Source: Hyphomicrobium denitrificans ATCC 51888 (GTDB lineage: Bacteria > Pseudomonadota > Alphaproteobacteria > Rhizobiales > Hyphomicrobiaceae). From it: DNA of 64,000 bases. Every line of letters starts with the position of its first letter. Position 1 is the stretch's first letter. Below are positions 22,602 through 58,754 of the stretch, in pieces. Location of the stretch: positions 2,046,001 to 2,110,000 of the forward strand of contig NC_014313.1 in assembly GCF_000143145.1 (NCBI RefSeq), in the 5' to 3' direction. Under the pieces are notes generated by a model. It searched no databases. It worked only from the letters and a program-made list of their open reading frames with translations, and had not been told where the DNA came from. The position numbers were made by a program, and so were the translations under genes.

Positions 22602-22750
22602 TGTCGATCCCAGTCTGGCTGAGTTCTTTAAAATCGCGAATTTAAAGTACCGAATCAATTTCGGCTATATGAGCCGCAAAGAATGTATCCGACGCTTAAC
22701 GTATATGATTTTCTATATCGCATTGAGGCGAGTACCGACAGCCGATTATT

Positions 22751-23812: not shown

Positions 23813-23827
23813 CGCATGTTCTATCGC

Positions 23828-26081: not shown

Positions 26082-28331
26082 ATGGCCGAGCCCGCAATTC
26101 CAGCGGCGTGCGAGACTAGCGTCCAATGGCCCTTTGGGCTGTTGCAGGACGCGTGGAACTATTCGATCGACGCTTGGCAGCGGAGCATTCTCTTTCTCGA
26201 CGTCTTGGAGCAAAGGAGTGCTAAGTATTACGAACATGCCGCGAAAGTTGCGCCGCATGTTCTGAAATTTAGTTGCGAGCTCGTGCTCGACGGACGTGAG
26301 CTTAAAAAGCCAGTAAATTACGTCCTTGCCCGTATCATTCCACCTGACGGCAAGAAGCCGGATAAGTTCAAGCGTCCCTTCGTGATTGTCGACCCGAGAG
26401 CCGGACATGGGCCGGGCATTGGAGGCTTCAAGCCGCAAAGCGAGATCGGCGTAGCGATGAAGGCGGGGCACCCTTGTTACTTCATCGGCTTCCTTCCCGA
26501 TCCCGTTAGCAGTCAAACCATCGAGGACATCGCTGAGGCGGAAGCGAAATTTCTCGAGCACGTGATCAGTTTACATCCCGAGGCCGATGGTAAGCCGGCC
26601 GTGATAGGAAACTGCCAAGCGGGCTGGGCAGTAATGATGCTTGCTGCGGCGCGACCAGAGCTTTTTGGTCCGATTATTGTGGCAGGATCTCCTTTATCGT
26701 ATTGGGCTGGAGCGCCAAAACAAAACCCGATGCGATATACCGCTGGCGTGCTCGGCGGCACTTGGACGACGGCTTTGCTCGGGGATGTTGGAAACGGCAA
26801 GTTCGATGGTGCGTGGTTGGTTTCTAATTTCGAGAATCTCAATCCCGCGAATACCCTTTGGTCCAAGCACTACAATCTCTATTCCAAAATCGACACCGAA
26901 GCCCCGAGATATCTGGAATTTGAACAATGGTGGGGCGGTCATGTGCTTCTCAACGCCGGTGAGATGCAGTTCATCGCCGACGAATTGTTCGTTGGAAACA
27001 AGCTGTCATCGGCGTCCGTCAGGTCTTCGAACGGCAACCTCATCGATCTTCGCAGTATCAGTTCGCCGATCGTGATCTTCTGTTCGAAGGCAGACAACAT
27101 CACGCCGCCGCCGCAAGCGTTGAACTGGATAATTGATCTTTACGATAGCGTTGAAGACATTCGAGCCCACGGGCAGACGATCGTCTATGCTGTGCACGAA
27201 TCTATCGGGCATCTTGGAATTTTTGTATCGGGGTCTATTGCCAAAAAAGAGCATGATCAGTTTGCGAACAACATCGATTTAATCGATACGTTGCCGCCGG
27301 GCCTCTACGAAGCCGTTATGACGCCGAAGGATCCCGACGATCCCACGGCAGATCTCATTTTGGGCGACTATCTTATTCGTTTTGAAGCGCGCAGCTTGGA
27401 TGATATTCGCGAGCTCGGCAGCAATAGTGAGGACGATGACCGCGAGTTTGCGACCGTCGCCCGGCTCTCCGAAATAAATCTTGGTCTCTATCGGACATTT
27501 GTTCAGCCCTGGATTCAAACCTGGACGAATGAGAGTTCAGCCGAATTGATGCGCCGGCTTCATCCTTTGCGCATGCAGTACGAATTCTTCTCAGGCGCCA
27601 ACCCATTCATCCGATCGCTGGCGTCCGATGCCGTTCGGCTTCGGGAAATGCGCCGACCCGTTTCAAAAGACAACATCTTTTGGCAGATGCAAGAGTGGTT
27701 CGGCGACTGGATGGTCCTGGCACTCGACGCCTACAGGGATGCTCGAGACGATACGTCGCAAGCATGGTTTCATGCGATTTACGGTTCGCCATTTCTTCAG
27801 GCAGCAGTCGGTCTCAGGGCATCCGATGAAATTCCACGTCTCAGAGTAGGAGATGATCCCGCGCATCACGCTCTCGTTGAGAAAAAAATAGCCGAACTGA
27901 AGCAAAGGCTCGCCGATGGTGGTCCTCGGGAAGCAGTTATTCGTGCGCTGCTATATGTACGAATGCCCGATGGAGCCGTGGATGAACGCGGCTTCAATCT
28001 TCTCCGAAGAATGCGAGATGAAACCGGCAAAGGTTTGAATCTTGCCGCATTCAAACAGATCCTGCGCGAACAATTCTTGATGTTGCTTCTTGATGAACGT
28101 CGCGCGGTTGCCGCCATCCCAGAGATGCTCGCCACCGATCCAGACTTGGCAACCCGAATGAAGGGCAAGCTCGATCGCATGATCGAATTGGTCGGAGTTC
28201 ACAGCAAGCTGGCGCGTGAACGCTTGGCGGAAGTGGAAGCATTATTTGAAAGTGAAGACATCACGACGATGCCTGCAAAGCAGGCAGCCATTTCGACATC
28301 GCGCAACAGCAGAGCCGAAAAGCGGCATTAA
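26082..28331 (+). CDS. DUF3141 protein, PHA-synthase-like alpha/beta hydrolase
   Basis: 749-residue cytosolic protein of the DUF3141 group. The first 400 residues form an alpha/beta hydrolase that resembles PHA synthase: nucleophile elbow GNCQAG with Cys178, acid in FCSKADNITPP (Asp338) and base in HESIGHLGIF (His377), lining up with Cys/Asp/His of PhaC. The remaining about 350 residues are helical and have no counterpart in PhaC. Substrate and activity are not established. It is the first gene of an operon with a small conserved protein, a phosphotransacylase, an acetate-kinase-family protein and FabI, behind a FixK-type box. A wholly non-catalytic role cannot be excluded. Confidence 0.85.
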   Translation: MAEPAIPAACETSVQWPFGLLQDAWNYSIDAWQRSILFLDVLEQRSAKYYEHAAKVAPHVLKFSCELVLDGRELKKPVNYVLARIIPPDGKKPDKFKRPFVIVDPRAGHGPGIGGFKPQSEIGVAMKAGHPCYFIGFLPDPVSSQTIEDIAEAEAKFLEHVISLHPEADGKPAVIGNCQAGWAVMMLAAARPELFGPIIVAGSPLSYWAGAPKQNPMRYTAGVLGGTWTTALLGDVGNGKFDGAWLVSNFENLNPANTLWSKHYNLYSKIDTEAPRYLEFEQWWGGHVLLNAGEMQFIADELFVGNKLSSASVRSSNGNLIDLRSISSPIVIFCSKADNITPPPQALNWIIDLYDSVEDIRAHGQTIVYAVHESIGHLGIFVSGSIAKKEHDQFANNIDLIDTLPPGLYEAVMTPKDPDDPTADLILGDYLIRFEARSLDDIRELGSNSEDDDREFATVARLSEINLGLYRTFVQPWIQTWTNESSAELMRRLHPLRMQYEFFSGANPFIRSLASDAVRLREMRRPVSKDNIFWQMQEWFGDWMVLALDAYRDARDDTSQAWFHAIYGSPFLQAAVGLRASDEIPRLRVGDDPAHHALVEKKIAELKQRLADGGPREAVIRALLYVRMPDGAVDERGFNLLRRMRDETGKGLNLAAFKQILREQFLMLLLDERRAVAAIPEMLATDPDLATRMKGKLDRMIELVGVHSKLARERLAEVEALFESEDITTMPAKQAAISTSRNSRAEKRH

Positions 28332-28372
28332 TGGGAGCAAGGTTCGTCGGCCCCAGACAAACGGAGGTAGCA

Positions 28373-28801
28373 ATGCCCGGACTCCTTCGCCCCGAAGACC
28401 TAAAGATGATTAGCTCTGACGCGGAGATGGCAGAGGTTGATCGCGATCGGCAGTTAGCGAACAAAAAGAAGCAACAAGACCGAGCGCTACGCGAGGCTTT
28501 CATGTCGCGCAAAGTCGCACCCGAAGCCGTCGAGCGGATAAACAACGCAGTTCGGATCGCCGCTCAAAACGGCCATCATCATTTAGAGGTCATCACCTTC
28601 CCGTCTAGCTACTGCAGCGACGGTGGAAGGCGGATCAATATTGCCGACGCGGAATGGCCAACGACGCTGACAGGTTTCGCCAAGGATGCTTACGATTTCT
28701 ACGACAAGGAATTGCGGCCGCTCGGCTACAAACTTCGCGCGGAAATCATCAGTTTTCCCGGCGGTATGCCCGGCGATATTTCTTTATCAATCGCGTGGTG
28801 A
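28373..28801 (+). CDS. Small conserved hypothetical protein
   Basis: 142 residues from the ATG at 28373, which has a good ribosome site (ACGGAGG, 6 bases upstream); an upstream in-frame start at 28331 overlaps the previous stop and is less likely. The N-terminal third is highly charged (MAEVDRDRQLANKKKQQDRA, helical), the rest is a compact domain with HHHLEVITFPSSYCSDGG and SFPGGMPGDISLSIAW. Family unknown to me. Wedged between the DUF3141 gene and the phosphotransacylase with short gaps, so co-transcribed. Confidence 0.72.
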   Translation: MPGLLRPEDLKMISSDAEMAEVDRDRQLANKKKQQDRALREAFMSRKVAPEAVERINNAVRIAAQNGHHHLEVITFPSSYCSDGGRRINIADAEWPTTLTGFAKDAYDFYDKELRPLGYKLRAEIISFPGGMPGDISLSIAW

Positions 28802-28822
28802 AACTTCCGAAGGAGAGGCGCC

Positions 28823-29782
28823 ATGGCAGAGGCAATCGTCTCCAAAATTCATCGGCATGAAAAATACGAACGACTGGTTGCAGCGGCGCAGCGTCTAAGT
28901 CCGCTTCCGACCGCCGTAGCACAGCCTTGCGACGAGTCATCACTTCGTGGCGCCATCGAAGCGCGGGATGCGGGACTGATAACCCCGATACTCGTGGGAC
29001 CAAAAGCAAAGATCATCGATATTGCGAGAACAATTGGTCTCAATCTCGATGGTCTCGAGATCATCGACGTGCCGCACAGCCACGCCGCCGCCGCAAAGGC
29101 CGTTGATGTCGTGCGTAGCGGCAAAGCCGAACTGCTCATGAAAGGCAGTCTTCATTCCGATGAGCTCCTTGGTGCCGTGACGAGTCGAGAAACGGGTCTT
29201 CGCACCGAAAGACGAATTAGCCACGTGTTTGTCATGGACGTGCCCACACATTCACAGACGCTGTTTGTGACGGATGCTGCAGTTAACATAGCGCCGGATC
29301 TGATGGCGAAACGTGATATCATCCAAAACGCAATTGACCTCTACACGGCCTTAGGTCTCGGCAAGCCCAAAGTTGCTATTCTATCGGCCGTCGAAACGGT
29401 TACCACCGCCATTCCGTCGACTATTGAAGCAGCCGCGCTTTGCAAGATGGCTGATCGTGGTCAGATCACCGGCGGAGAACTGGATGGACCACTTGCGTTC
29501 GACAATGCCATCAGTTTAACGGCGGCGCGCGTCAAGGGCATCAAGTCGCCTGTGGCGGGACATGCGCAAATCCTTGTCGTACCGGATTTGGAAGCGGGCA
29601 ATATGCTCGCCAAAAATCTTACGTTTATTTCTAATGCTGACGCTGCTGGAATCGTTCTTGGAGCAAGAGTGCCAATCATTCTGACGTCGCGAGCGGACAA
29701 TGTTCGGACACGCCTGGCTTCCTGCGCCGTCGCCAAATTGCTTGCTTACAGCAGACGGGCTAACGCTCCGATCAGAGCATGA
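28823..29782 (+). CDS. Phosphate acetyl/butyryltransferase family protein
   Basis: Phosphotransacylase (PTA_PTB) of 319 residues, exchanging CoA and phosphate on an acyl group. Recognised by AAQRLSPLPTAVAQPCDESSL at the start, PHSHAAAAKAVDVVRSG, LLMKGSLHSDELLGAV, RRISHVFVMDVP, and DGPLAFDNAIS with PDLEAGNMLAKNL near the end. Short (not the 700-residue Pta), with this pattern shared with the C-terminal half of the fusion protein at 55215-56621, which makes the two paralogues. Sequence favours the Ptb-like branch, but acetyl versus butyryl preference is open. Ribosome site AGGAGAGG precedes the ATG; three bases separate its stop from the kinase start. Confidence 0.88.
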   Translation: MAEAIVSKIHRHEKYERLVAAAQRLSPLPTAVAQPCDESSLRGAIEARDAGLITPILVGPKAKIIDIARTIGLNLDGLEIIDVPHSHAAAAKAVDVVRSGKAELLMKGSLHSDELLGAVTSRETGLRTERRISHVFVMDVPTHSQTLFVTDAAVNIAPDLMAKRDIIQNAIDLYTALGLGKPKVAILSAVETVTTAIPSTIEAAALCKMADRGQITGGELDGPLAFDNAISLTAARVKGIKSPVAGHAQILVVPDLEAGNMLAKNLTFISNADAAGIVLGARVPIILTSRADNVRTRLASCAVAKLLAYSRRANAPIRA

Positions 29783-29785
29783 CCA

Positions 29786-30994
29786 ATGTCCGATACCATA
29801 CTGGTCATCAACGCGGGCAGCTCGAGTATTAAATTTCAGCTGTTTGCAATTGCGCCCGAAAAACAACTCGATCGGCGGCTTAGAGGTCAGATCGAGGGTA
29901 TTGGGACAAGGCCACGATTAGTTGCAAGCGATGCTACCGGTCAACGTGTCATTGATAAGGTGTGGGGGACCGACGAAGTCGGCGAATTGCATCACGCACT
30001 TGATAGACTGGTCGTGTTCCTACGTGAGTATGTTGGAAGGCTGCCCGTTGCGGTCGGGCATAGGGTCGTCCACGGAGGACCGGAATTTATTGAACCAACG
30101 TTGCTCAACTCCCGCGTCCTAGATCACCTACAGCGATTTGTGCCCCTTGCACCTCTTCACCAACCGAACAACCTCGCACCAATAAGAATCGTTCTGGAGC
30201 GACAGCCGCACCTCTTGCAGGTCGCGTGTTTCGACACTGCTTTTCATAGACATCATTCGGAAATTGCGGACCGCTACGCGATTCCTGATCGATTTTATCG
30301 TGAGGGCGTGCGCCGATATGGATTTCACGGGTTGTCGTACGAGTATATTGCATCGAGGATTCCGCAAGTCGCTCCTGAAATTGGCGATCATCGGGTCGTC
30401 GTCGCTCACCTGGGAAGCGGCGCATCGATGTGTGCGCAACAAGGAGGAAAGAGCATTGAAAGCAGCATGGGATTTACGGCTCTGGACGGTTTGCCGATGG
30501 GTACGCGTCCAGGTCAGATCGACGCTGGCGTCGTGCTCTATCTTATGAATGAAAAGGGCATGAGCGTTAAAGACGTCGAGCATTTCCTTTATAACGATTG
30601 CGGTCTCAAGGGCCTATCAGGCATTAGCAATGACGTCAGAGATTTGCTCTCGAGCGTCGACCCAAGGGCCAAGCTGGCACTCGACTACTTTGCCTATCGC
30701 ATCGCGCTTTTCGGGGGGATGCTCGCGACGGCATTGGGCGGAATCGATGGCTTGGTCTTTACCGCCGGAATTGGAGAAAACGCGCCGGCAATTCGCCGAG
30801 CGGTGGTCGCTCGCATGTCGTGCTTTGGGATAGAACTGTCGGAAACAGCGAACGGAAAAAACCAACTCCGCATCTCCAGCGATGCCTCCCGTGTTGGGTG
30901 TTACGTGGTGCCGACCGACGAAGAGCTGATGATTGCAAGGCACACATTGCAAATGTTGCAAATGCAAAAAATGCCCAAGGAGAAGCGGGCATGA
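29786..30994 (+). CDS. ackA: Acetate/propionate family kinase
   Basis: ASKHA-fold kinase converting acyl phosphate plus ADP to acid plus ATP. 402 residues, typical for acetate kinase. Key blocks: INAGSSSIKF at the N-terminus, GHRVVHGG (substrate-site Arg), ACFDTAFHR, RRYGFHGLSYEY, VVAHLGSGASMCA, MGFTALDGLPMGTRPGQIDAG, and FTAGIGENAP. All expected catalytic residues are there. It makes ATP from the acyl phosphate of the preceding phosphotransacylase. The last four bases overlap the fabI start (ATGA), indicating translational coupling. Acetate is the default substrate; propionate or butyrate is possible. Confidence 0.92.
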   Translation: MSDTILVINAGSSSIKFQLFAIAPEKQLDRRLRGQIEGIGTRPRLVASDATGQRVIDKVWGTDEVGELHHALDRLVVFLREYVGRLPVAVGHRVVHGGPEFIEPTLLNSRVLDHLQRFVPLAPLHQPNNLAPIRIVLERQPHLLQVACFDTAFHRHHSEIADRYAIPDRFYREGVRRYGFHGLSYEYIASRIPQVAPEIGDHRVVVAHLGSGASMCAQQGGKSIESSMGFTALDGLPMGTRPGQIDAGVVLYLMNEKGMSVKDVEHFLYNDCGLKGLSGISNDVRDLLSSVDPRAKLALDYFAYRIALFGGMLATALGGIDGLVFTAGIGENAPAIRRAVVARMSCFGIELSETANGKNQLRISSDASRVGCYVVPTDEELMIARHTLQMLQMQKMPKEKRA

Positions 30995-31773
30995 TTGATG
31001 TTTCTTCGCTAAACTTGCTCAAAAGCAAAAAGGCGCTCGTTACCGGCATCGCAAACGATCAGTCCATAGCGTGGGGATGTGCTAAGGCATTTCACGCATT
31101 CGGCGCAGACGTTGCGGTTACGTATCTTAATGAAAAAGCTAAACCGCACGTCGAACCCCTGGCTAAAGAGGTCGGCGCGCAAATCCTCATGCCTCTCGAC
31201 CTCCAGCATGAAGGGCAACTTGAGGACGTATTCGAAAAAATTGAGAAGAGGTGGGGAAGGCTCGATCTATGCCTTCACTCCCTCGCGTTTGCTCCGAAGG
31301 ATGACCTGCAGGGTCGCGTCGTCGATTGCTCCAGAGATGGATTTCTTCGTGCAATGGAGATTTCGTGCTGGTCGTTTATCAGGATGGCCAAGCTTGCCGA
31401 GCCACTCATGAAATCAGGTGGCGCCTTGTTCACGATGACTTACTACGGCTCGCAAATGGTCGTGGAGCACTACAACATCATGGGCCCAGTGAAAGCCGCT
31501 CTTGAATCGACGACAAGATACTTGGCCGCCGAATTAGGACCAAAAGGCATCCGGGTGCACGCAATATCTCCCGGTCCTCTGAAAACGCGCGCCGCATCTG
31601 GAATTACGGCATTTGATAAGCTTCTTCAAAAGGCACAATCAAAAGCGCCAAGCCGGAGCCTAGTCTCGATCGACGATGTCGGCGTTGCGGTAGCCTTTCT
31701 CGGCATGGACGGGGCGAAACTGATAACCGGCGAAACGCTCTATATTGATGGCGGCTACCACATCATCGATTAG
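30991..31773 (+). CDS. fabI: Enoyl-ACP reductase FabI-type SDR
   Basis: NADH-dependent enoyl reductase fold of 260 residues; ATG at 30991 overlaps the kinase stop. FabI signatures: GIANDQSIAWG cofactor loop, LHSLAFAP, and the catalytic Tyr-x6-Lys in HYNIMGPVKAALE, followed by RVHAISPGPLKTRAASGI. It is one of two FabI-type genes in the window, each at the end of a phosphotransacylase/kinase operon. That setting suggests reduction of crotonyl-CoA or another short enoyl thioester instead of, or in addition to, fatty acid synthesis; this is inference. Confidence 0.9.
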   Translation: MIDVSSLNLLKSKKALVTGIANDQSIAWGCAKAFHAFGADVAVTYLNEKAKPHVEPLAKEVGAQILMPLDLQHEGQLEDVFEKIEKRWGRLDLCLHSLAFAPKDDLQGRVVDCSRDGFLRAMEISCWSFIRMAKLAEPLMKSGGALFTMTYYGSQMVVEHYNIMGPVKAALESTTRYLAAELGPKGIRVHAISPGPLKTRAASGITAFDKLLQKAQSKAPSRSLVSIDDVGVAVAFLGMDGAKLITGETLYIDGGYHIID

Positions 31774-31954: not shown

Positions 31955-32374
31955 ATGACCCATAAAGTGCTTTGTGCAGTAGACGATACCGGCCATTCCG
32001 AGAGCGCAATAACGCAAGCGGCTGAACTGGCAAAAGCTACTGGAGCCGACCTCACTCTACTCGCCGTCAATTTGCCTGCCGGAGGCGACGGGCGAGGTGG
32101 AATTATTGTGTATACCTGGGAAGATTCCGACGAGAAACGCGTTCTCGACAATGCTTCTGCTGTCGCGAGTAAAGCGGGTATTTCCAATCCCAAGACGGTA
32201 AGCGTGAGAAGCCGCGATGCGGCGCGCTCCATCGTCGTTTATGCCGAGGACAATGGAATTGACCATATCGTCGTCGGTACGGGCGGCAAAGGCAACATAG
32301 CGCGGCTCGTGCTTGGCTCGGTCTCAAGCAGTGTAGTTGCCCGTGCGCATTGCCCCGTGACGGTTGCAAGATAG
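31955..32374 (+). CDS. Universal stress protein, UspA family
   Basis: Single Usp domain, 139 residues. Begins with the first beta strand KVLCAVDDTGHSE and ends with IDHIVVGTGGKGNIARLVLGSVSSSVVARAHCPVTV, close to the nucleotide-binding G-rich loop of ATP-binding Usps. It follows the FabI gene on the same strand after about 180 A/T-rich bases and probably has its own promoter. Usp genes frequently accompany low-oxygen regulons, consistent with the operon upstream. Confidence 0.9.
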   Translation: MTHKVLCAVDDTGHSESAITQAAELAKATGADLTLLAVNLPAGGDGRGGIIVYTWEDSDEKRVLDNASAVASKAGISNPKTVSVRSRDAARSIVVYAEDNGIDHIVVGTGGKGNIARLVLGSVSSSVVARAHCPVTVAR

Positions 32375-38942: not shown

Positions 38943-40340
38943 ATGACGACGCTGCGCGTGTCGCAAAAGCTGGAAATTTCTGACGCCGATTGGCGGTTGA
39001 TCGGCGAGACTGCGAGCGCACTTCCGGCGGATAAAGCTCACAAGTGGCAAAACCACATCGGCGCCGCACCGCTTGAAAATGCACGGTCAGATCTTTCCTC
39101 GATCATCGACCGAATTCGGAATGGACCCTGGTGCTTCGTGCAGCTTCGCGGAGCCCCGCTCAGCGCAGAGGATATCGGTCGCGGAGACGTTGACCTCCTC
39201 GTCAGCCGTTCGTCCGTAGACGCACTATTGAGTGCGGTGTTTGAGTGGACGCTCGCGGGCGAATGTCATGCGGTCATACGATCGCGCTCTACCGATAAGG
39301 TAGGCCTCGAGATTTTCGACATCGACGGACGCGACAGCCTCTGTTTCGATTTCTGGATCGAGCTTTGGCAGCTTGCCGGCGGCGCGAACTATCTCAGGTT
39401 CGAAGATGTCGCTCATCTGGCCGGGGCGTCAAACGGGATCGTGAGATTACCGCCTGAGATCGAAGCGGCGATCTACCTTGAGCATCTGATCAGCAAGAAG
39501 CGGAAGCTCGACAACGATCACGTGCGCGGACGACTCTCGAACTACGAAAGCACGTGCGCTTCGGCTGGCTCTTCCGAATTGGCTGCTGCACTCGCTCGGA
39601 TCCAGCACTCGGGCAAGATCGACGAACAGGCGCTGGCGGTCAGCCGCAAGCTGCTTGCGGACAATAAGCTCTGGCCTGCCGCGAGACCATCGAGACGATT
39701 CCGCCACAAGGTCGTGACGGAGATGCGCGCGGCGTGGCTCGACGCTCCCCGCAAAACGCGCAGCATGTCGATCATGGGCTGCGACGGCTCCGGCAAAACC
39801 AGCGTCATCAAAAAACTCCGCGAGGCCGAGCCGAATAGATTCAATAGCTACGTCGGCAAGCGGCTCTATCGAAATTCCATTCTCTACAAGATTGCTGTCG
39901 CGCTGATCCGACCGCTGCTGTTTCAGGGCCGGGAAAAGTTTGACGACACGCTGGCGCCCTTCAACTATGTGCGCGCTGCCGCGGCCCTTCCGTTTCTGAA
40001 CCTATTTCCGGGACGCAAGCTGACGCTCGTCGACCGCGCGCTGATCGATTTCGTCATCGTCGACCGAAAATCCGACCATCCGAGGCTCCACCGGGCTTCC
40101 CGGCTGTCGCGCGTCTTCGGACATCGCATCCCGGTCATGCATCTCCTGGTTCCCAATGCGCGTCTCTCGCAGCGCAAGCGAGAAATGACCGAAGCCGGAC
40201 ATGCGCGATACGACCGTCTTGTCTTCGACTGCTTATCGCGCCGTACGCCGACAACGTACGTTCTATTTCACAACGGCGGCGACATCGAAACGTCGGTCGC
40301 TGCTGCCCGAAACATCATTCTTCAGTCGTCGAGGACATGA
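38943..40340 (+). CDS. Nucleotidyltransferase-like / thymidylate-kinase-like fusion protein
   Basis: 465-residue protein with two recognisable parts. The N-terminal half has a nucleotidyltransferase-like motif (GRGDVDLLVS, about 80-90). The C-terminal half is a P-loop kinase: Walker A in MGCDGSGKTSVIKKL (about 277-290), an Asp-Arg motif in LVDRALIDFVIVDRKSDHP, and an Arg-rich lid (SQRKREMTEAGHARYDR), close to thymidylate kinases. Proteins of this fused kind occur near polysaccharide genes; none is adjacent here. The next gene overlaps by four bases (ATGA). Substrate unknown. Confidence 0.72.
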   Translation: MTTLRVSQKLEISDADWRLIGETASALPADKAHKWQNHIGAAPLENARSDLSSIIDRIRNGPWCFVQLRGAPLSAEDIGRGDVDLLVSRSSVDALLSAVFEWTLAGECHAVIRSRSTDKVGLEIFDIDGRDSLCFDFWIELWQLAGGANYLRFEDVAHLAGASNGIVRLPPEIEAAIYLEHLISKKRKLDNDHVRGRLSNYESTCASAGSSELAAALARIQHSGKIDEQALAVSRKLLADNKLWPAARPSRRFRHKVVTEMRAAWLDAPRKTRSMSIMGCDGSGKTSVIKKLREAEPNRFNSYVGKRLYRNSILYKIAVALIRPLLFQGREKFDDTLAPFNYVRAAAALPFLNLFPGRKLTLVDRALIDFVIVDRKSDHPRLHRASRLSRVFGHRIPVMHLLVPNARLSQRKREMTEAGHARYDRLVFDCLSRRTPTTYVLFHNGGDIETSVAAARNIILQSSRT

Positions 40341-41083
40341 TGGCCATTCACGACATCAAGCAGATCATGATCGCGCTGCGTGCCCTCCACCGGGACAGGG
40401 AAAATCACGCCGTGTTTGGCACGGCAGCGCCGAGAACGGCCGAACTCATTTGGGTCGATCCGAAAAAGATCAACTTCTACATGGGGCAACTACCTGAAGG
40501 ATTGAATAATCGTCGGACGAGCGGGCGCATTGTCGATTTCGAGCGCCGTGGCTTGAGCTTCTCGCCGCTGGAAGACGTGATCCCGGTGAAGTCCAGTCTG
40601 ATGCATTGGCGCGATGGCTTGCCTTGGGAGGAAACGCCCGACTTCATCAATCGCATGACGCGCGTGAAGTTCTTTCGTGCCGGCATCAGCCATAATACCA
40701 AATCAGCGGTGGCGCGGCGCTATCGCAAGCTGGATGAACTCTATCGCCGCATTGAAAGAGAACGAGCGTTCAAGACCCAGAAGCAATTGAAGCCCTGGAA
40801 TTTTCGAGAGTACGGCGGTGTTCAAATCGGCATCGACGCAGCCGGCCGATTTGCCGTCATGCGCGGCTCCGGACTGCATCGCACCATGATCGCGAAGCTT
40901 CTCGACCTCCCCTATATTCCCGCGATGGTCGGGCTCATCGACGTCAACGCCATCTCGTATCTGGAATCGTTGCGCACCCCGCCGGAGCATCGCGCGGAGT
41001 TTGCTTCGGGCACATCAGAAATGCTCCGCGAATACCGGCCCTCCGAGAGCCTCGCGGTTGACGCCTCAGCAATGTCGCTTTGA
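40337..41083 (+). CDS. Hypothetical protein with ParB/sulfiredoxin-like segment
   Basis: 248 residues; start overlaps the kinase stop, so translation is coupled (an alternative ATG follows one codon later). Family not recognised. A segment near the C-terminus, GSGLHRTMIAKLLDLPYIPAMV, resembles the G-x-HR-x-A...L-x-x-IP-hydrophobic pattern of ParB/Srx-like domains; the N-terminal part has WVDPKKINFYMG and FERRGLSFSPLEDVIPV. The pairing with a nucleotidyltransferase-kinase suggests a joint role in a nucleotide or phosphosugar modification. Confidence 0.68.
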   Translation: MMAIHDIKQIMIALRALHRDRENHAVFGTAAPRTAELIWVDPKKINFYMGQLPEGLNNRRTSGRIVDFERRGLSFSPLEDVIPVKSSLMHWRDGLPWEETPDFINRMTRVKFFRAGISHNTKSAVARRYRKLDELYRRIERERAFKTQKQLKPWNFREYGGVQIGIDAAGRFAVMRGSGLHRTMIAKLLDLPYIPAMVGLIDVNAISYLESLRTPPEHRAEFASGTSEMLREYRPSESLAVDASAMSL

Positions 41084-51346: not shown

Positions 51347-53011
51347 TTATTCGGCTGGCATTGCGATGGCGCCGGGGCGCAGTTCCGGTGCTGCGGCGAC
51401 CGCGGGCTGATCCCGTACGTCGACCGACACGTCGCTGCGAATGGTGCGCCAGATGTTGTAGGCCATGATCAACCCGCCGAGCAGGAACAGGACGCCGCCT
51501 GTCGCACGGATGACGTAAGGCCAATGCAGCGCCTCGACTGTTTCAATGAACGAATACTTGAGGAAGCCGAGGCGGTCGTATGCACGCCACATCAGCCCCT
51601 GCGTGATGCCCGCCACCCACATCGACGAGATGTAGAGAACGATGCCGATCATCGCGAGCCAGAAGTGCCACTCGACAAGCTTCTGCGAGTAGAGACCCTT
51701 GCGCTTCCAAAGCCACGGAACGAGGCAGTAGACGGCACCGAACGAGATCATGCCGACCCATCCCAGCGCGCCCGAGTGCACGTGCCCGATCGTCCAGTCG
51801 GTGTAGTGCGAGAGCGAGTTGACCTCTTTGATGGACATCAGCGGTCCTTCGAACGTCGACATGCCGTAGAAGGCGACACTGACGACGAGCAGCCGGATGA
51901 CCGGGTCGGTTCTGAGCTTATCCCATGCACCCGAGAGCGTCATGAGACCGTTGATCATGCCACCCCATGACGGCATCCACAGCATGATCGAGAACGTCAT
52001 GCCGAGCGTCTGCGTCCATTCCGGCAGAGCGGTGTAGTGGAGATGGTGCGGACCGGCCCAGATGTAGAGGAAGATCAGCGACCAGAAGTGCACGATCGAC
52101 AGGCGGTACGAGTACACGGGGCGCTCGGCGCGCTTCGGAATGAAGTAGTACATGATGCCGAGGAAGCCGGCCGTCAGGAAGAAGCCGACGGCGTTATGCC
52201 CGTACCACCATTGCGTCATCGCACCTTGGACGCCGGGGAACAGCGGGTAGCTCAGCGTTCCGAGAAACGATACCGGCAGCGCGAGGTTGTTGACCACATG
52301 CAGCATCGCGACAGTGACGATGAAGCCGAGGAAGAACCAGTTCGCGACGTAGATGTGCGGTTCCTGGCGGCCTCTGAGCGTGCCGAGGAACACAAGAAGA
52401 TAGGTGACCCACACGAGCGTCAGCAGGATATCCGCATACCACTCGGGCTCTGCGTATTCCTTGCTTTGCGTTACGCCCATCAAATAGCCGGTCGCGGCGA
52501 TGACGATAAAGAGCTGGTATCCCCAAACGACGAACCACGGCGCCCATTTGCCCGGCATTCGCGCCTGGCTCGTGCGCTGGACCACGTAAAGCGATGTCGC
52601 GATGAGCGCGTTGCCGCCGAATGCAAAAACGACGGCTGAGGTGTGGACCGGGCGCAGGCGGCCGAAGTTGGTCCACGGCAGGTCAAGATTGAGAGCCGGG
52701 AACGCGAGCTGCCAAGCGAGAATGTCGCCGACAAGAAAGCCGGCGACGCCCCAGAACACGCACGCGATTGTCGCGACGCGAATTGGGCCATCGAAATAGC
52801 CGGAACGCTTCTCTTCTCTGAGATTGGTCGGATGGGTTGCGACATATAAACCAGCCGCGACGCCAGCAACCAATAAAAGCAGTCCCTGAAATCGGAGTAT
52901 TTCCTCCTCTCCAGCGACCGCGAAGATCAGACCAATTACGCCCATTATGACTGCGCTAATCAGCGCCAGCGAGTCGCTTAATCCTGAGCGCTCGTCCAAT
53001 ACATCTTGCAA
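51347..53011 (-). CDS. ccoN: cbb3 oxidase catalytic subunit I
   Basis: Heme-copper oxidase subunit with 12 or more membrane helices, reducing O2 at high affinity. The frame is open to a TTG at 53068, but that codon is 3 bases from the FixK box and would precede any plausible start site. The TTG at 53011 has a strong GGGAGG ribosome site (53017-53022) with 5 bases spacing and gives 554 residues, close to known CcoN, so I use it. Typical segments: [18 protein letters not shown] ([16 protein letters not shown]), [26 protein letters not shown], and [18 protein letters not shown], carrying the heme and CuB histidines. First gene of the operon. Confidence 0.95.
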
Positions 53012-53070
53012 AGCTGCCTCCCGATCCCACCAGGGAAGCCGCACACTCGGATGATGAACAGTTAGCAACC

Positions 53071-53084
53071 TTGATTTAAGTCAA
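53071..53084 (-). promoter_or_regulatory. FixK/FNR-type box for the cbb3 operon
   Basis: TTGATTTAAGTCAA (reverse TTGACTTAAATCAA) is one mismatch from the FNR consensus TTGAT-N4-ATCAA and an exact fit to the FixK form TTG(A/C)-N6-(T/G)CAA. A class II start about 41 bases away would be near 53036, upstream of the TTG at 53011. Confidence 0.75.
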
Positions 53085-53257: not shown

Positions 53258-54031
53258 TTACGCGACGACGTGGAAGCCGTGGTCGGCATAGGACGTCGAG
53301 CCCGTCATGGCGCTTCCGGCGTCGCTTGCGAGAAATGCCGAGATGCGCCCGATCTGTTCGATCGTCACCAGCTGATGATCCGGCGTGCGCTCGCGCGTCT
53401 TTTCCAAAAGCTCGTCGAAGCGATCTATCCCTGAGGCCGCGCGCGTCGCGATCGGCCCGGATGACAGCGCGTGCACATGGATGCGGCGCGGCGCGAGATC
53501 GGAAGCGAGAGTCCGCACCGTCGCTTCCAGCGCGGCCTTGACTGGCCCCATGAGATTATAGTGCTCGACCACGCGGCTGGCGCCGAAGAAACTCACCGTT
53601 TGCAGGCTGCCGCCATCGACCATCAACGGCAACGCCAGCTTCGCCATGCGGATGAATGAGTGGCATGAGACATCCATTGCCATCGCGAAGCCTTCGGCCG
53701 AGCACAGCACAAGACTGTTGTGCAAGTCCTCGCGTGGCGCGAAGGCGATGGAATGCACGATGCCGTCGAGACGACCCCACGTCGCGCGAATGGTATCGAA
53801 AACGCTTTCCAACTCGCCTTGAATGCGGACATCGCACGGGACGATGATCGACGCGTTCAGTTCCTCCGCCAACGGCCTCACATGTGGTTCGGCCTTGGCG
53901 TTCAGGTACGTCACCGCGAGGTCGGCACCGGCGGCCTTCAGTGCCTCGGCACAGCCATAGGCGATGCTGCTCTTGTTGGCGATGCCGACGACAAGAACGC
54001 GCTTGCCGGTGAGATCGACGATCGGTTTCAT
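53258..54031 (-). CDS. fabI: Enoyl-ACP reductase FabI-type SDR (second copy)
   Basis: 257 residues from the ATG at 54031, one base overlapping the kinase stop. Cofactor loop GIANKSSIAYG, VHSIAFAP, catalytic Tyr-x6-Lys in HYNLMGPVKAALE and SSGPIATRAASGIDRF are all present. It is the paralogue of the island gene at 30991-31773, and both share the GP before the catalytic Lys. It closes the phaC operon. Its natural substrate may be crotonyl-CoA, to feed the phosphotransacylase, or enoyl-ACP. Confidence 0.9.
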   Translation of the reverse strand: MKPIVDLTGKRVLVVGIANKSSIAYGCAEALKAAGADLAVTYLNAKAEPHVRPLAEELNASIIVPCDVRIQGELESVFDTIRATWGRLDGIVHSIAFAPREDLHNSLVLCSAEGFAMAMDVSCHSFIRMAKLALPLMVDGGSLQTVSFFGASRVVEHYNLMGPVKAALEATVRTLASDLAPRRIHVHALSSGPIATRAASGIDRFDELLEKTRERTPDHQLVTIEQIGRISAFLASDAGSAMTGSTSYADHGFHVVA

Positions 54032-55218
54032 CAGGCCTCTCTGCTGGACATCAGAAGCGCGCAGGCTTCGGTGGCGATCACCTGCTCTTCGTCCGTCGGA
54101 ATGACGAAAACGCCGACTTTGCTGTCTTGCGCGTCGATGCGTGTTGCGCTCGCGGAATTTGCATTGTCGTCCAGCGTGACGCCGAGCCACGCGAGGCGCG
54201 CACATACGGCAGCGCGTATCGAAGGCTGATGTTCACCGATGCCCGCCGTGAAGACAACGGCATCGAGGCCGCCCAACGTCGTCGCGAGCGCGGCGATCTC
54301 CTGCGCGATCCGATGTGTGAACAATGCGATCGCTTCTCGTGCCGCCGGTTGATCGCTGCCGAGTAAATCGCGGCTGTCGGCGCTTATTCCCGAGACGCCG
54401 AGCAATCCCGATCGGTGATAGAGAATGTCTTCGACGCTCGCGAGCGATTGTCCTTGTTGCTTCAGAAGATGGATGACGACGCCCGGGTCGAGCGCGCCGC
54501 AGCGCGTCGCCATTGGGATTCCGTCGAGCGTCGAAAAGCCCATGCTCGTATCGCGGCTTTCGCCGTTTTCGAGCGCGCAGAGACTCGCGCCGCTGCCAAG
54601 GTGCGCGGCGACGACACGTCCGGCTGCGAGATCGGGCGCAAGCTCGCGCAGCCGCGATGCCGCGAATTTGTAGGACAGCCCGTGAAATCCGTATCGCTTG
54701 ATCCCGGCATCGAACATTTCACGAGGCAGGGCGAAGCGGCGAACGATGTCGGATTGCGTCCTATGGAACGCCGTGTCGAACGACGCCGATTGCGGCAGGT
54801 CGGGGCGGAGATGACGGATGGCGCGGATCAGCCGGAGACTCTGCGGTTGATGCAGCGGCGCCAGATCGACGAAGCGCGCAATCGTCGCCAGCGTGTCATC
54901 GGTGATCAGAGTTGCACCGGAGAAAGCGTCCCCGCCGTGCACGACGCGATGACCGGCCGCAGCTATTCCCTGAAGTGCGAAGTGATCGCTCAGCCAGTCG
55001 AGCGTTTCATCGATGAGTTCGTGCAGATCCTCGGTGACTTCGGCGCGTAACGGGATGTCGGCAACGGTCGGACCTTCGACGACGTGCAACAGCAGCGGCG
55101 TGCGTCTGAGATCGATGACGCCCCGGCCCAATCGCACAGGCCCGTCTTCCGCCATACGGTAAAGACCGAGCTTGATGGTCGATGAGCCCGGATTGAAGGT
55201 AATCAGAATTTCGCTCAT
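54031..55218 (-). CDS. Acetate/propionate/butyrate family kinase
   Basis: 395-residue ASKHA kinase, ATG at 55218 overlapping the fusion-gene stop (ATGA). The usual acetate kinase blocks are complete: GHRVVHGG, ASFDTAFHRTQ, KRYGFHGLSY, VVAAHLGSGASLCAL, MGFSTLDGIPMATRCGALDPG, FTAGIGEHQP. The N-terminal site reads FNPGSSTIKLGLY, with NPGS as in butyrate kinases rather than N(A/C)GS; the island paralogue has NAGS. That may mark a different acyl preference. A longer frame to 56244 is only an overlap with the upstream gene. Confidence 0.88.
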   Translation of the reverse strand: MSEILITFNPGSSTIKLGLYRMAEDGPVRLGRGVIDLRRTPLLLHVVEGPTVADIPLRAEVTEDLHELIDETLDWLSDHFALQGIAAAGHRVVHGGDAFSGATLITDDTLATIARFVDLAPLHQPQSLRLIRAIRHLRPDLPQSASFDTAFHRTQSDIVRRFALPREMFDAGIKRYGFHGLSYKFAASRLRELAPDLAAGRVVAAHLGSGASLCALENGESRDTSMGFSTLDGIPMATRCGALDPGVVIHLLKQQGQSLASVEDILYHRSGLLGVSGISADSRDLLGSDQPAAREAIALFTHRIAQEIAALATTLGGLDAVVFTAGIGEHQPSIRAAVCARLAWLGVTLDDNANSASATRIDAQDSKVGVFVIPTDEEQVIATEACALLMSSREA

Positions 55219-56621
55219 GCGGTCGCGCTGGTCCGGTGTTCTGCGACGAGCTTGGCCAACGCGGCCGACACCAGCCGCACGCGCAGCGTATCGGATCGGC
55301 TGGTCAGAATGATCGGAACGCGCGCACCAAGCACGAGGCCGGCGGCGTCGGCGCCAGCGAGATAAATGAGCTGCTTGGCGAGCATGTTCCCCGCTTCCAG
55401 GTTCGGAACGACGAGAATGTCGGCGCGCCCCGCAACGGGCGACACGATCTCCTTGATGCGCGCAGAGTCGAGGTTGATGGCATTGTCGAACGCCAGCGGG
55501 CCGTCGACTTTCGCGCCGGTGATCTGACCGCGCGCCGCCATCACCGTCAGGGCGGCGGCTTCGAGCGTTGCGGGCATCGCGGGGTTGACCGTTTCGACGG
55601 CGGCGAGAACGGCAACCAATGGCTCGGCGACGCCGAGCACGTGCATCAGGTCGATGGCGTTCTGGCAGATGTCGCGCTTCTGATCGAGCGTCGGCATGAT
55701 GTTGATCGCCGCGTCCGTGACGATCAAGGGCTTGGGATACGACGGCACGTCGAGCACGTAGACGTGGCTGATGCGCCGCTCTGTGCGCAGGCCCGACTGC
55801 ACCGCGACGACGGCGCCGAGCAATTCGTCGGTATGAAGGCTGCCTTTCATCAACGCATGAACGGCACCCGACGACGCAAGCTCGACGGCCTTGGCGGCGG
55901 CGGCGTGGCTGTGCTCGGTCGCCTCGATGCGCAAGCCTTCGATCGAAACGCCGGCTTTCTCGGCAGCGGCAGCGATCTTGTGCGGCGGACCGACGAGCAC
56001 CGGTTCGATGAGGCCTTCGAGTTTGGCTTCGATCGTCGCGGAGATCGCTTCCGGGCTGCACGGATGCACGACGGCGGTCGGCAACGCAGGCAGCGATTTC
56101 GCCTGCTCGAGGACCTGATCGAAGCGGCCGTGACGACGGAGCGCGACTTCCGGCACCGGAATGCGCGGCAGGCTCAGTTTTTCGGTTGGTGCGATGACCG
56201 TCGCCTGGCCCGACAACACTTCCTTGCCGTGCTGGTTGACGCACAATGTATCGAGAACGACGCGCTTATCCGGCCCCTTCTCACGCACGGTAACGGTTGC
56301 CGTGACGGTATCGCCCGGCGCGACCGGACGACGGAAGCGCAGGTCCTGGCCGAGGTAGATCGTTCCAGGTCCCGGTAATTGCGTACCGAGTAGCGTGGAC
56401 AGCAGCGCTGCGGTCCACATGCCGTGAATGACGACGTGACCGAACATATCGGTCGCCGCATAAGCCGCGTCGAGATGGGCGGGATTGACGTCGCCCGATG
56501 TCGCGGCAAACAGCTTGATGTCGTCTTCGCTCACAAACCGCGTGAGAGAGGCGCTCTCGCCGATTTCCAATTCGTCGAACGTGCGATTGGTCAGGCGGAT
56601 CTGGGGGATCACAGCTGTCAT
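55215..56621 (-). CDS. MaoC-type enoyl-CoA hydratase fused to phosphate acyltransferase
   Basis: 468-residue bifunctional protein. Residues about 10-150 are a MaoC hot-dog domain with the R-specific hydratase motif SGDVNPAHLD (Asp44, His49), which interconverts enoyl-CoA and (R)-3-hydroxyacyl-CoA. Residues about 165-468 are a Pta/Ptb domain matching the stand-alone gene at 28823-29782 block by block (HSHAAAAKAVELASSG, LMKGSLHTDELLGAV, RRISHVYVLDVP, DGPLAFDNAINL). Both active sites look intact. Fusing a hydratase to a phosphotransacylase beside phaC links PHA precursors to acyl phosphate. Overlaps neighbours by four bases on each side. Confidence 0.9.
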   Translation of the reverse strand: MTAVIPQIRLTNRTFDELEIGESASLTRFVSEDDIKLFAATSGDVNPAHLDAAYAATDMFGHVVIHGMWTAALLSTLLGTQLPGPGTIYLGQDLRFRRPVAPGDTVTATVTVREKGPDKRVVLDTLCVNQHGKEVLSGQATVIAPTEKLSLPRIPVPEVALRRHGRFDQVLEQAKSLPALPTAVVHPCSPEAISATIEAKLEGLIEPVLVGPPHKIAAAAEKAGVSIEGLRIEATEHSHAAAAKAVELASSGAVHALMKGSLHTDELLGAVVAVQSGLRTERRISHVYVLDVPSYPKPLIVTDAAINIMPTLDQKRDICQNAIDLMHVLGVAEPLVAVLAAVETVNPAMPATLEAAALTVMAARGQITGAKVDGPLAFDNAINLDSARIKEIVSPVAGRADILVVPNLEAGNMLAKQLIYLAGADAAGLVLGARVPIILTSRSDTLRVRLVSAALAKLVAEHRTSATA

Positions 56622-58390
56622 CGTTGCAGCACATAGGTTCCGGGCGCGGCAGCAAGCGGCGAGATGCCCTTCGCCTCGCAGCCCATTGCGGGCGGTGAAA
56701 CTCTTTCAGGTGAAGCGTGCGCCGCGAGCCAGTCGGTCCAGACGGGCCACCACGATCCGTCCTTCACCTTGGCCGCGGAAAACCATTCGTCGGCGCTGAG
56801 GCAGATGTCGTTTCGCGCTTTCGTCAGAAGACGGAAATGGCGGTTCGCATGTCCGGGTTCATTGACGATGCCGGCGTTATGTCCGCCGTTCGTCAGTACG
56901 AAGGTGACGCCGGTATCCGCGAGATAGTGGATTTTATAAACCGACTTCCAGGGCGCGATATGATCGCGCTCCGTTCCGACCGCAAACACCGGAACGCGGA
57001 TATTCTGCAGCGCGATCGGATTGCCATCGACGACGTAGCGTCCGCTCGCGAGATCGTTGCGCAAGAACAGTTTGCGCAGATAATCCGAATGCATCTGGAA
57101 GGGCATTCGCGTTGCATCGGCGTTCCAGGCCATCAAGTCGATCATCTGGCTGCGCTCACCCATGAGATAGTCATGGATCATGTGCGACCAGATCAGGTCG
57201 TTGGATTTCAAAAGCTGGAACGCACCGGCCATTTGCGAGGAGTCGAGCGTGCCGCTTTGCCCCATCAGCGCTTCGAGAAGAGCCACCTGGCTGTCGTCGA
57301 TAAACAGTTGCAGATCGCCCGGTTCGGTGAAGTCGGTCTGAGCTGCGAGCAAGGTGACGCTTGCTAGACGATCGTCGCCCGTTTCGCCCATCGCAGCCGC
57401 GGCGATCGACAGGAGCGTTCCACCGAGACAGTAGCCGGCGGCGTGCACCGGCCGATCCGGCACGACGGCGGAAATCGTATCGAGCGCCGCCATCACGCCG
57501 AGCCGGCGATAATCCTCGAGTGAAAGATCGCGATCCTCAGCGGAGACGTTGCGCCAGGAGATGCAGAAAACCGTGAAGCCCTGGTCGACGAGAAATTTGA
57601 TCAACGAATTGTGCGGCGACAGATCGAGCACATAATACTTCATGATCCATGCGGGAACGATCAGGATCGGCTCCGCGTGCACGGTTTCTCCGGCCGGAGC
57701 GTATTGGATCAGCTCGATCAGGTGATTGCGAAAGATGACTTTGCCCGGCGTTGCCGCGACCGTCTCGCCGACCTTGAACGCTTCAGCGCCTGTCGGAAGT
57801 TTTCCGCCCGCAATCCGTTCTGCGTCTTCGAGCCAAATTTGCGCGCCTCTGACGAGATTGGCACCGCCTTCGCGAAGCGTCTGCTGCCCGACGGCCGGAT
57901 TTGCGAACGGAGAATTGGAGGGCGACCACATGTCGAGCCACTGGCGCACGGCGAATGACACCACGGCTTCATGATGCGGAGACACGCCCGGCACGCCGCG
58001 CGTCGCCGAGGCCCACCAATCCTCAACGGCGCTAAAGGTGTCGGCCCAGAACTGAAACGGAAACTGATTCCAGGCGTCGCCGGAAAAGCGAGGATCGCGC
58101 CGCGCAGGTGTTTTGCTATGACCCGCTCCGTCTTCGACCTCGACGCCGCTGATGCCACGCGCCGCGCGCTGCATCGTGTCCGCAAGAAGCTGCCCATAGG
58201 CTTCGGCGAGCGCGATCCGCTTTCCGGGCGCCACGGCCAGATGCATGCTCCAATCCAGAACAGCCAGCGTTAGGCCGATCGGCGATAGACCGGATGTCAT
58301 ATGCCCAAGGCCAGCAAGCGCCGCCTGATCGATCAACTGCTCGGGTGTTTGGGCTTTCGGGATCTCGGTCGTCTGATTTGTATCTCGCAA
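56618..58390 (-). CDS. phaC: Class I poly(R)-hydroxyalkanoate synthase
   Basis: 590-residue synthase that polymerises (R)-3-hydroxyacyl-CoA into PHA granules. Starts at a TTG with GGAGAG ribosome site; no better start was seen. PhaC domain (about 100-200) and alpha/beta hydrolase core with nucleophile GYCLGG (Cys321), acid in GTERDHIAP (Asp476) and base in NGGHNAGIVNEPG (His504), all spaced as in known class I enzymes. Alternatively annotated as an alpha/beta hydrolase of PhaC type. First gene of the operon phaC-maoC/pta-kinase-fabI; no phaR or phasin gene adjacent. Confidence 0.92.
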   Translation of the reverse strand: MRDTNQTTEIPKAQTPEQLIDQAALAGLGHMTSGLSPIGLTLAVLDWSMHLAVAPGKRIALAEAYGQLLADTMQRAARGISGVEVEDGAGHSKTPARRDPRFSGDAWNQFPFQFWADTFSAVEDWWASATRGVPGVSPHHEAVVSFAVRQWLDMWSPSNSPFANPAVGQQTLREGGANLVRGAQIWLEDAERIAGGKLPTGAEAFKVGETVAATPGKVIFRNHLIELIQYAPAGETVHAEPILIVPAWIMKYYVLDLSPHNSLIKFLVDQGFTVFCISWRNVSAEDRDLSLEDYRRLGVMAALDTISAVVPDRPVHAAGYCLGGTLLSIAAAAMGETGDDRLASVTLLAAQTDFTEPGDLQLFIDDSQVALLEALMGQSGTLDSSQMAGAFQLLKSNDLIWSHMIHDYLMGERSQMIDLMAWNADATRMPFQMHSDYLRKLFLRNDLASGRYVVDGNPIALQNIRVPVFAVGTERDHIAPWKSVYKIHYLADTGVTFVLTNGGHNAGIVNEPGHANRHFRLLTKARNDICLSADEWFSAAKVKDGSWWPVWTDWLAAHASPERVSPPAMGCEAKGISPLAAAPGTYVLQR

Positions 58391-58754
58391 GAGCGTCTCT
58401 CCGCGCGCATCACATTGGCCACGCTTGGTTCGTTTGCCGCTCCCTGCATCAGCTTATTTAATTTTTTCAGTATATAGTCTTGGATATATGAGAGAATTTT
58501 GACAACGACCAACGGCGCAATTGCGCGCAGCCGAATTTGCACGCCTTACGGCCTTCAGCCGGCGTGCATGATTTAAGACTTATTAAGCGCCAGCTTTTCG
58601 CCGAATAGGGTTGCTTCGCCAATCGGCCGCGCGCCTAAGAGGCCGCGGCCGATTGCGATTTACAAAGCAGCGCGCTTCAAGCGCCGCCATTTTGCGACGG
58701 CAAAATTTGCCGTTGGGAAGGAGAGCTTTGGCGGACCTCGCCACAACGACGTCG
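58391..58754. other. Intergenic region with an 11-bp inverted repeat
   Basis: 364 bases. It contains the phaC promoter (A/T-rich 58450-58500) and, closer to metE, an exact inverted repeat AATCGGCCGCG (58621-58631) / CGCGGCCGATT (58644-58654), probably the metE terminator though without a T-tract. A weak FNR-like site (TTGACAACGACCAA at 58499-58512) has one bad half. No gene seen. Confidence 0.5.

Follow-up and report, generated by a model that had tools for sequence, protein, structure and literature searches.

A conserved phaC, MaoC-phosphotransacylase, kinase and FabI-type cassette in Hyphomicrobium denitrificans and a possible dissimilatory route off polyhydroxyalkanoate

The four-gene cassette and its distribution

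We analysed a 64,000-nucleotide stretch of Hyphomicrobium denitrificans ATCC 51888 (the window), in which four genes lying in a row on the minus strand at 53258-58390 join polyhydroxyalkanoate (PHA) synthesis to acyl-CoA and acyl phosphate chemistry. The first, phaC (56618-58390, with a provisional TTG start), encodes a PHA synthase-like protein of 590 amino acids (aa) and is followed by genes for a 468 aa fusion of an R-specific, PhaJ-like MaoC hydratase to a phosphotransacylase (MaoC-PTA, 55215-56621), a 395 aa kinase of the AckA (acetate/propionate) family (54031-55218), and a 257 aa FabI-type enoyl reductase (53258-54031). An earlier note on this DNA had described the four as head to tail with overlapping starts and stops, and this was borne out: phaC and MaoC-PTA share four bases (ATGA, 56618-56621), MaoC-PTA and the kinase gene share another four (ATGA, 55215-55218), and the kinase and FabI-type genes share a single base within TGATG (54029-54033).

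Pfam and NCBIfam matched all domains named for the four genes, and three of the proteins passed the cut-off of a curated NCBI family, namely the fusion (NF006045, 742.5 bits over a cut-off of 282, residues 10-466), the kinase (NF005462, 676.9 bits, cut-off 486), and the FabI-type protein (NF005717, 412.8 bits, cut-off 337). PhaC carries PF12551 (PHBC_N), PF07167 (PhaC_N), and PF00561 (alpha/beta hydrolase), and reached 512.7 bits with the class I PHA synthase model TIGR01838, under its cut-off of 622.65; its triad of Cys321, Asp476, and His504 is kept in all 62 aligned PhaCs of the cassette type, its own included. The hydratase motif SGDxNPxHxD, also read by the earlier note, is present as SGDVNPAHLD at residues 42-51 of the fusion, and its S, G, D, N, P, H, and D were invariant in an alignment of 11 sequences. 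Matches of the fusion in the PDB were 7vg9 (a phosphate butyryltransferase) and 5cpg (an R-specific enoyl-CoA hydratase).

The arrangement does not look like chance, because 41 of the 199 order genomes (its own included) encode the full-length fusion, and 34 of 80 loci hold the four genes as a group on one strand. These 80 loci are the best 80 of at least 587 stretches that encode a relative of the fusion, none extending more than 10 kb from the match and some truncated at contig ends, with genes called by a simple codon model. Among the 34, the order was PhaC-MaoCPTA-AckA-FabI in 25 and PhaC-FabI-MaoCPTA-AckA in seven, with FabI first in two; in one further locus (L047), a DUF3141 gene stands in place of phaC. 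The closest relative (L215) holds the whole cassette, with identities of 83-92% by gene.

Partial versions of the set were also found. Three loci from the genus (L216-L218) have PhaC plus a MaoC-FabI pair a few kb away on the opposite strand, L208 has PhaC, FabI, and MaoC in a row, and L207 has MaoC-FabI with PhaC on the opposite strand; no PTA or AckA was seen in the stretches fetched for these five loci. PhaC alone was present in five stretches from the genus (L219-L221, L224, L225). Single open reading frames (ORFs) that join MaoC to FabI are P0221 (452 aa), L206:9922-11202, and L207:8979-10289, and such single ORFs were found in two genomes of the order (G060 and G054). P0221 may be a deletion product within a cassette, since it is similar to the MaoC-PTA protein in its MaoC half and linker, which would leave L206, L207, L208, and L216-L218 unaffected. 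By Pfam, the L218 neighbourhood also encodes CBS-BON, alcohol-dehydrogenase-family, biotin/lipoyl-domain, and CoA-ligase/acetyltransferase-domain proteins, and these four are present by similarity in L216 and L217. An HlyD-like protein, a double ABC ATPase/permease, and an ABC-2-like permease, all named by eye, lie near the cassette in 21-25 of the 80 loci (among L047-L126); these exporter-like neighbours were set aside as unrelated.

The FabI subfamily and the acid-forming enzymes

The FabI-type protein has the catalytic Tyr-x6-Lys pair, and Tyr156, Met159, and Lys163, which it shares with the FabI enoyl-acyl carrier protein (ACP) reductases, are kept in all 40 FabIs from the window and the 80 loci. 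The cassette proteins differ from those reductases at Lys201, Arg204, and Lys205 of E. coli FabI, which reportedly contact ACP in the 2FHS structure. The equivalent of Arg204 is Asp in 40 of these 40 FabIs and in 120 of 120 listed homologues (P0123-P0242), whereas it is Arg in all 52 housekeeping-type alphaproteobacterial FabIs (the genome's own two, the 30 sequences that best match E. coli FabI, and 20 hand-picked second-tier sequences). Adding two fragments of less than 200 aa that stand outside the 40-sequence residue table brings Asp to 41 of 42 (L107 has Asp, and L106 is the exception with Ser). Positions 201, 204, and 205 read D, D, and E in the present protein, with no neutral or basic patch at the reported contact, and the mean charge over 201-205 is -1.7 in cassette FabIs, as compared to 0 to +0.2 in housekeeping FabIs and +2 in E. 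coli. All 40 cassette FabIs read Pro-Val at residues 161-162, as against Val-Ala in all 30 tier-one and most of the 20 tier-two housekeeping sequences, while Phe occupies position 146 in 24 of the 40. Five aligned FabIs of solved structure have H, H, G, G, and R at position 204, none of them acidic.

In a tree of 134 rows, in which the bootstrap was not fully settled and from which nine in ten of the 120 homologues had been dropped beforehand, all 80 subfamily rows fell on one branch of length 0.49 with support of 100/99, apart from the housekeeping clade. At class level (29 loci), position 204 is Asp in 23, Glu in five, and Lys in one; the Lys-bearing L254 (243 bits) falls within the housekeeping clade, and L253 (247 bits, Asp) belongs to the subfamily by both residue and tree, which means that the score gap between 282 and 247 bits is not a clean border. 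Of the class-level matches that score lower than L253, L254 is the one included. A search with E. coli FabI (L155) placed a FabI, clearly separated from other reductases, in 61 genomes of the order, with scores of about 200 bits and more as against 78 and less among the matches listed. FabI matches under 120 bits and PhaC or DUF3141 matches under 80 bits were dropped before the counts were made.

A cassette gene lies within 1.5 kb of none of 30 housekeeping FabI loci as compared to nine of 28 class-level subfamily loci. We rejected the idea that the subfamily is exclusive to the cassette, as 19 of the 28 have no partner within 1.5 kb (a weak MaoC match in L237 apart). Among 143 genomes of the class, a Ptb-like PTA is present in 18 of 29 with a subfamily FabI and in 12 of 114 without one (p = 3e-8, a value that ignores kinship); leaving out four weak PTA matches lowers the latter figure to eight of 114, and counting the genome of L253 among those without the FabI gives 18 of 28 and 12 of 115. 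The two genes are far apart or on different contigs in ten of the 18 genomes. Around the stand-alone subfamily FabIs (L271-L288), PhaC, PTA, and AckA were not found within about 8 kb, and no neighbour was common to three or more of these loci except an ABC-type protein in three.

It is a fair inference from these residues and the tree that the cassette FabI lineage gave up ACP docking. That the protein acts only on acyl-ACP appears less likely in view of the acidic patch and the fusions.

The PTA half scores 268-294 bits across three Ptb models, including 280.9 bits with TIGR02706 (under its cut-off of 410.5), and 60.1 bits with the classical Pta model TIGR00651 (cut-off 311.2), placing it nearer Ptb than classical Pta. 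The kinase passes the acetate/propionate kinase model TIGR00016 with 319.3 bits over a cut-off of 293.4. Val93 and Pro232 (M. thermophila numbering) presumably line the acetate pocket of acetate kinase; the Pro, present in five aligned kinases of solved structure, is replaced by Ala, Thr, or Ser in 75 of 76 cassette kinases. Both proteins are compatible with C4 acyl groups, which is no proof that they use them.

Proposed direction of the pathway and its regulation

We propose, tentatively and with somewhat less than even confidence, that the operon encodes a dissimilatory side route from PHA by way of acyl-CoA. The (R)-3-hydroxyacyl-CoA would be supplied from PHA by CoA-dependent reversal of PhaC or by a depolymerase, or would be diverted before polymerisation. 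The MaoC half would dehydrate it to trans-2-enoyl-CoA (step 1), the FabI-type reductase, freed from ACP docking, would reduce the enoyl-CoA with NAD(P)H to acyl-CoA (step 2), the PTA half would convert this to acyl phosphate (step 3), and the kinase would release a short-chain acid, most likely butyrate, together with ATP. The other half of the 3-hydroxybutyrate would be oxidised to acetyl-CoA and on to acetate, the acetyl part being one that a second pta-ackA-fabI operon in the window could handle; two 3-hydroxybutyrate would then give butyrate and two acetate, a redox-neutral and ATP-yielding split that would suit cells short of an electron acceptor.

The order hydratase, FabI, phosphotransacylase had been put forward in the earlier note, and it gained support from the acidic FabI patch, from the fusions (MaoC-PTA joins steps 1 and 3, and MaoC-FabI steps 1 and 2), and from the neighbourhoods that hold PhaC, MaoC, and FabI with no PTA; for the substrates, the direction, the redox balance, and the physiology of that pathway, we infer what these genes suggest. 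Enoyl reductase reactions run strongly downhill, and the FabI therefore fits the consumption of 3-hydroxyacyl-CoA and not its formation. Also in favour of dissimilation are the co-occurrence of subfamily FabI and Ptb-like PTA, the higher scores of the PTA half with Ptb than with Pta, the FNR-type boxes of the cassette genes as a set, and the PhaB and second PhaC of this genome. We are less confident of butyrate specifically, and of oxygen control of the Hyphomicrobium copy, than of dissimilation as such. Doubtful, in our estimate, is the wider picture of a PHA fermentation spread through the proteobacteria, in which polyhydroxybutyrate (PHB) would be split redox-neutrally to butyrate, acetate, and ATP by way of a NADH-dependent, enoyl-CoA-reducing FabI lineage that left fatty acid synthesis and lost ACP docking, and in which PHA granules would act as the cell's own electron acceptor when oxygen is scarce. 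PHB is usually viewed as a store of carbon and electrons drawn on by respiration; a route from PHB to butyrate and ATP with no external acceptor, if real, would explain why PHB mobilisation meets low-oxygen regulons and phosphotransacylases accompany a large FabI subfamily, and it would caution against naming cassette FabIs enoyl-ACP reductases.

The earlier note had placed the cassette directly upstream of a cbb3 oxidase operon on the same strand and had suggested an electron sink for cells short of oxygen. The position holds: ccoN is listed at 51347-53068, 189 bases beyond the FabI-type gene, and an exact FNR/FixK-type palindrome, TTGATTTAAGTCAA (53071-53084), lies before it, between the two operons. 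The box lies so close to the listed TTG that ccoN probably starts further in, and because ccoN has its own exact FNR-type box, co-transcription with the cassette is not implied. The functional meaning of the position did not hold up, as CcoN was found near only one of the 80 loci (L101, on the other strand) and was not present in 20 kb of sequence surrounding the L215 cassette, that of the closest relative, and we discarded the neighbourhood as functional evidence. Before phaC itself, about 100-125 bases upstream of the listed start, lies a candidate regulatory block (58488-58512, minus strand), where a PHO-box-like TTGTCAAAATTCTCTCAT overlaps the right half of an FNR-like site, TTGGTCGTTGTCAA, at -122.

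At the level of the gene family, exact TTGA-N6-TCAA sites precede 25 of 97 cassette genes as compared to 36 of 536 other genes in the 80 loci (odds ratio 4.8, p = 2e-7), a comparison in which the controls may include co-regulated neighbours and related loci (e.g., L072, L074, L078, L094) are not independent; 60 of 4000 random 320-base windows contain such a site. The 97 upstream stretches belong to cassette-type phaC, DUF3141, or leading MaoC-PTA genes, and the upstream sets were limited to matches that start near the N-terminus of the query and to stretches of at least 200 bases. Twelve of the 97, six of them with the box, have no close PTA partner on the same strand; in the strict set, led by MaoC-PTA or closely followed by a PTA partner, the count is 19 of 85 (odds ratio 4.0, p = 3e-5), comprising 13 of 49 PhaC-led and six of 31 MaoC-PTA-led stretches and none led by DUF3141. 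Judged from these upstream sequences, oxygen control of the cassette family is likely. For the Hyphomicrobium copy specifically, the low-oxygen control of the earlier note was not supported, and phosphate control appears at least as likely.

The gene arrangement is already published, and what is new here is the FabI evidence and the proposed direction. An assimilatory function, in which the kinase and PTA would activate acetate, propionate, and other acids and the hydratase and PhaC would channel them by way of enoyl-CoA into PHA with FabI incidental, seems to us rather unlikely, although AckA-Pta is reversible. It has been proposed for Burkholderia sensu lato groups D1/D2, where a fused phaJ-pta with phaC, ackA, and fabI is read as acetate storage and some clusters carry phaB (PMC8231600), and for the same gene set in Cobetia/Halomonas (PMC8686332) and Paraburkholderia xenovorans LB400 (PMC12568896). 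The P. xenovorans LB400 locus (L059) is like that of Hyphomicrobium in its four-gene order, with identities of 61-70%; compared with the Burkholderia, Paraburkholderia, and Cobetia clusters, the Hyphomicrobium copy differs in that a cbb3 operon, preceded by an FNR-type box of its own, follows it, and in having neither phaB nor bktB among its four genes. However, an assimilatory route would lose its enoyl-CoA to the conserved reductase, which depends on NAD(P)H, and such a route has no place for MaoC-FabI fusions or for PhaC/MaoC/FabI neighbourhoods free of kinase and PTA; acyl-CoA dehydrogenase was absent among the families that recur in at least five of the 80 loci, as judged by eye with no profile search. 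On the FabI evidence, we regard dissimilation as more plausible than the printed reading. Reduction to butyrate was not proposed in the literature found on the cluster, a weak negative that covers partial texts and leaves subscription journals mostly outside. The clostridial ptb-buk system has in common with the proposed Hyphomicrobium route the passage from acyl-CoA through acyl phosphate to acid and ATP, and the PTA half is nearer Ptb; unlike that system, the kinase is of the AckA family and not Buk, the reductase is FabI-type and not Bcd-Etf or Ter, and the hydratase is R-specific and fused to the transacylase.

Two other accounts bear on the same evidence. In the one, which we think unlikely, the genes would serve acetyl phosphate and phosphate stress, with Pta-AckA overflow to acetate recycling CoA and phosphate and FabI acting as an auxiliary enoyl-ACP reductase in membrane remodelling. 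The AckA-like kinase and the second operon of Sinorhizobium meliloti type in the window agree with it, as does the PHO-like site before phaC, which is kept in L215 where the left half of the FNR-like site is not. The S. meliloti orf-pta-ackA-fabI operon, to which the Burkholderia cluster has been tied, is co-transcribed and PhoB-induced (Summers 1999, as cited in PMC8231600). Yet the PHO box failed as a general feature of the cassette, since sites with up to three mismatches were not enriched (4 of 97 upstream stretches vs 15 of 536); the genome already holds two FabIs of the housekeeping clade, the acidic FabI patch speaks against ACP use, and the hydratase is left unexplained. The other account, which we consider improbable, keeps the dissimilatory chemistry and moves it to C6-C10 3-hydroxyacyl-CoA from fatty acid or medium-chain-length PHA intermediates, with medium-chain acids as products. 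FabI enzymes accept long chains and the kinase pocket is altered at the Pro, but AckA-family kinases act on short acids. In PMC12568896, fused PhaJ domains are nearer to P. aeruginosa PhaJ2 (C6-C10) than to the C4-C6 enzymes, and the fused enzymes are also grouped with C4-C8 users.

Returning to the dissimilatory route to butyrate and its control by oxygen, a number of observations weigh against one or the other. FabIs with His or Gly at position 204 (H, H, G, G among the solved structures) are annotated as ACP enzymes, and therefore Arg204 is not essential for ACP use. A newer docking model has K43 and R193 as the ACP contacts and not Arg204 (PMC7966745); under it the signal is mixed, as 35 of 40 cassette FabIs have K43 and the 52 housekeeping ones lack it, while position 193 is Lys or Arg in 18 of 40 as compared to 52 of 52. 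Eighteen of the 19 class-level subfamily FabIs without a close partner lack any cassette gene out to about 8 kb, except for a 44-bit MaoC match in L281 (the same weak match as in L237), and 25 of the 80 loci have MaoC-PTA and AckA with PhaC and FabI not in range, some of them at contig ends, which means that the fusion can serve without PhaC and FabI. The PTA half passes the cut-off of PRK11890, a "phosphate acetyltransferase" model, and falls under all Ptb cut-offs; the kinase reaches only 32 bits with the butyrate kinase model TIGR02707 (cut-off 289.1) where the AckA model fits, and it retains the acetate-type Val93, as do all 76 cassette kinases and likewise the propionate kinase structure 4xh4. 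On the regulatory side, the cbb3 operon is no regular neighbour, no exact FNR box stands before phaC or before six DUF3141 genes outside the window, and the FNR-like TTGGTCGTTGTCAA is one mismatch from TTGA-N6-TCAA, as is its L215 counterpart CTGATAACTGTCAA, the left halves of the two being different. The PHO-like block, in contrast, is conserved in an otherwise divergent region (TTGTCAAAATTCTCTCAT here, with 3 of 14 positions off, and CTGTCAAATTTCTCTCAT in L215, with 2 of 14 off), and the S. meliloti operon is induced by PhoB. In Bradyrhizobium diazoefficiens, phaC2 (bll6073) is a FixK2 target with the box TTGATGCAGCTCAA (PMC9104804) and is among the genes that differ under microoxia (PMC9104804, PMC6515984, PMC10888616), and PhaC2 is reportedly dispensable for PHB polymerisation (PMC10888616); a link between phaC2 and the cassette is tentative at most, and the low-oxygen literature, as far as available, treats AckA-Pta in general and not as this cassette.

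The second operon and its surroundings

About 22 kb from the phaC cassette, a DUF3141-type operon occupies 26082-31773 on the plus strand and is conserved in two relatives (L222 and L223). In phaC's place it encodes a 749 aa DUF3141 protein (26082-28331; PF11339, 914.7 bits), which is followed by a 156 aa protein that has no Pfam match and is kept in both relatives (28331-28801), an unfused phosphotransacylase with 60% identity to the fusion's PTA half (28823-29782), an acetate-kinase-family protein 46% identical to the first kinase (29786-30994), and a FabI-type reductase of the same subfamily, with Asp at position 204 and 56% identity (30991-31773). The S. meliloti operon shares the pta-ackA-fabI order, and the second operon has the same layout plus one small gene; the S. 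meliloti operon is unlike the phaC cassette in that its first gene is not phaC and its PTA is unfused. The genome thus has two FabIs in PTA-AckA-FabI sets and two of the housekeeping clade, together with a second PhaC, an acetoacetyl-CoA reductase PhaB (377 bits), and a crotonyl-CoA carboxylase/reductase (623 bits).

The DUF3141 operon has, 55 bases ahead of its start, an FNR box with one mismatch (TTGATTTTAAGCAA, 26013-26026), and it is followed by a Usp gene (31955-32374). Beside the operon, 21774-25624 encodes a PPK2 polyphosphate kinase, a Na/Ca-exchanger-family protein, and, by eye, a SulP-type transporter, which lends the neighbourhood a stress flavour. Elsewhere in the window, two adjoining ORFs of 465 and 248 aa with overlapping ends (38943-41083) gave no Pfam match.

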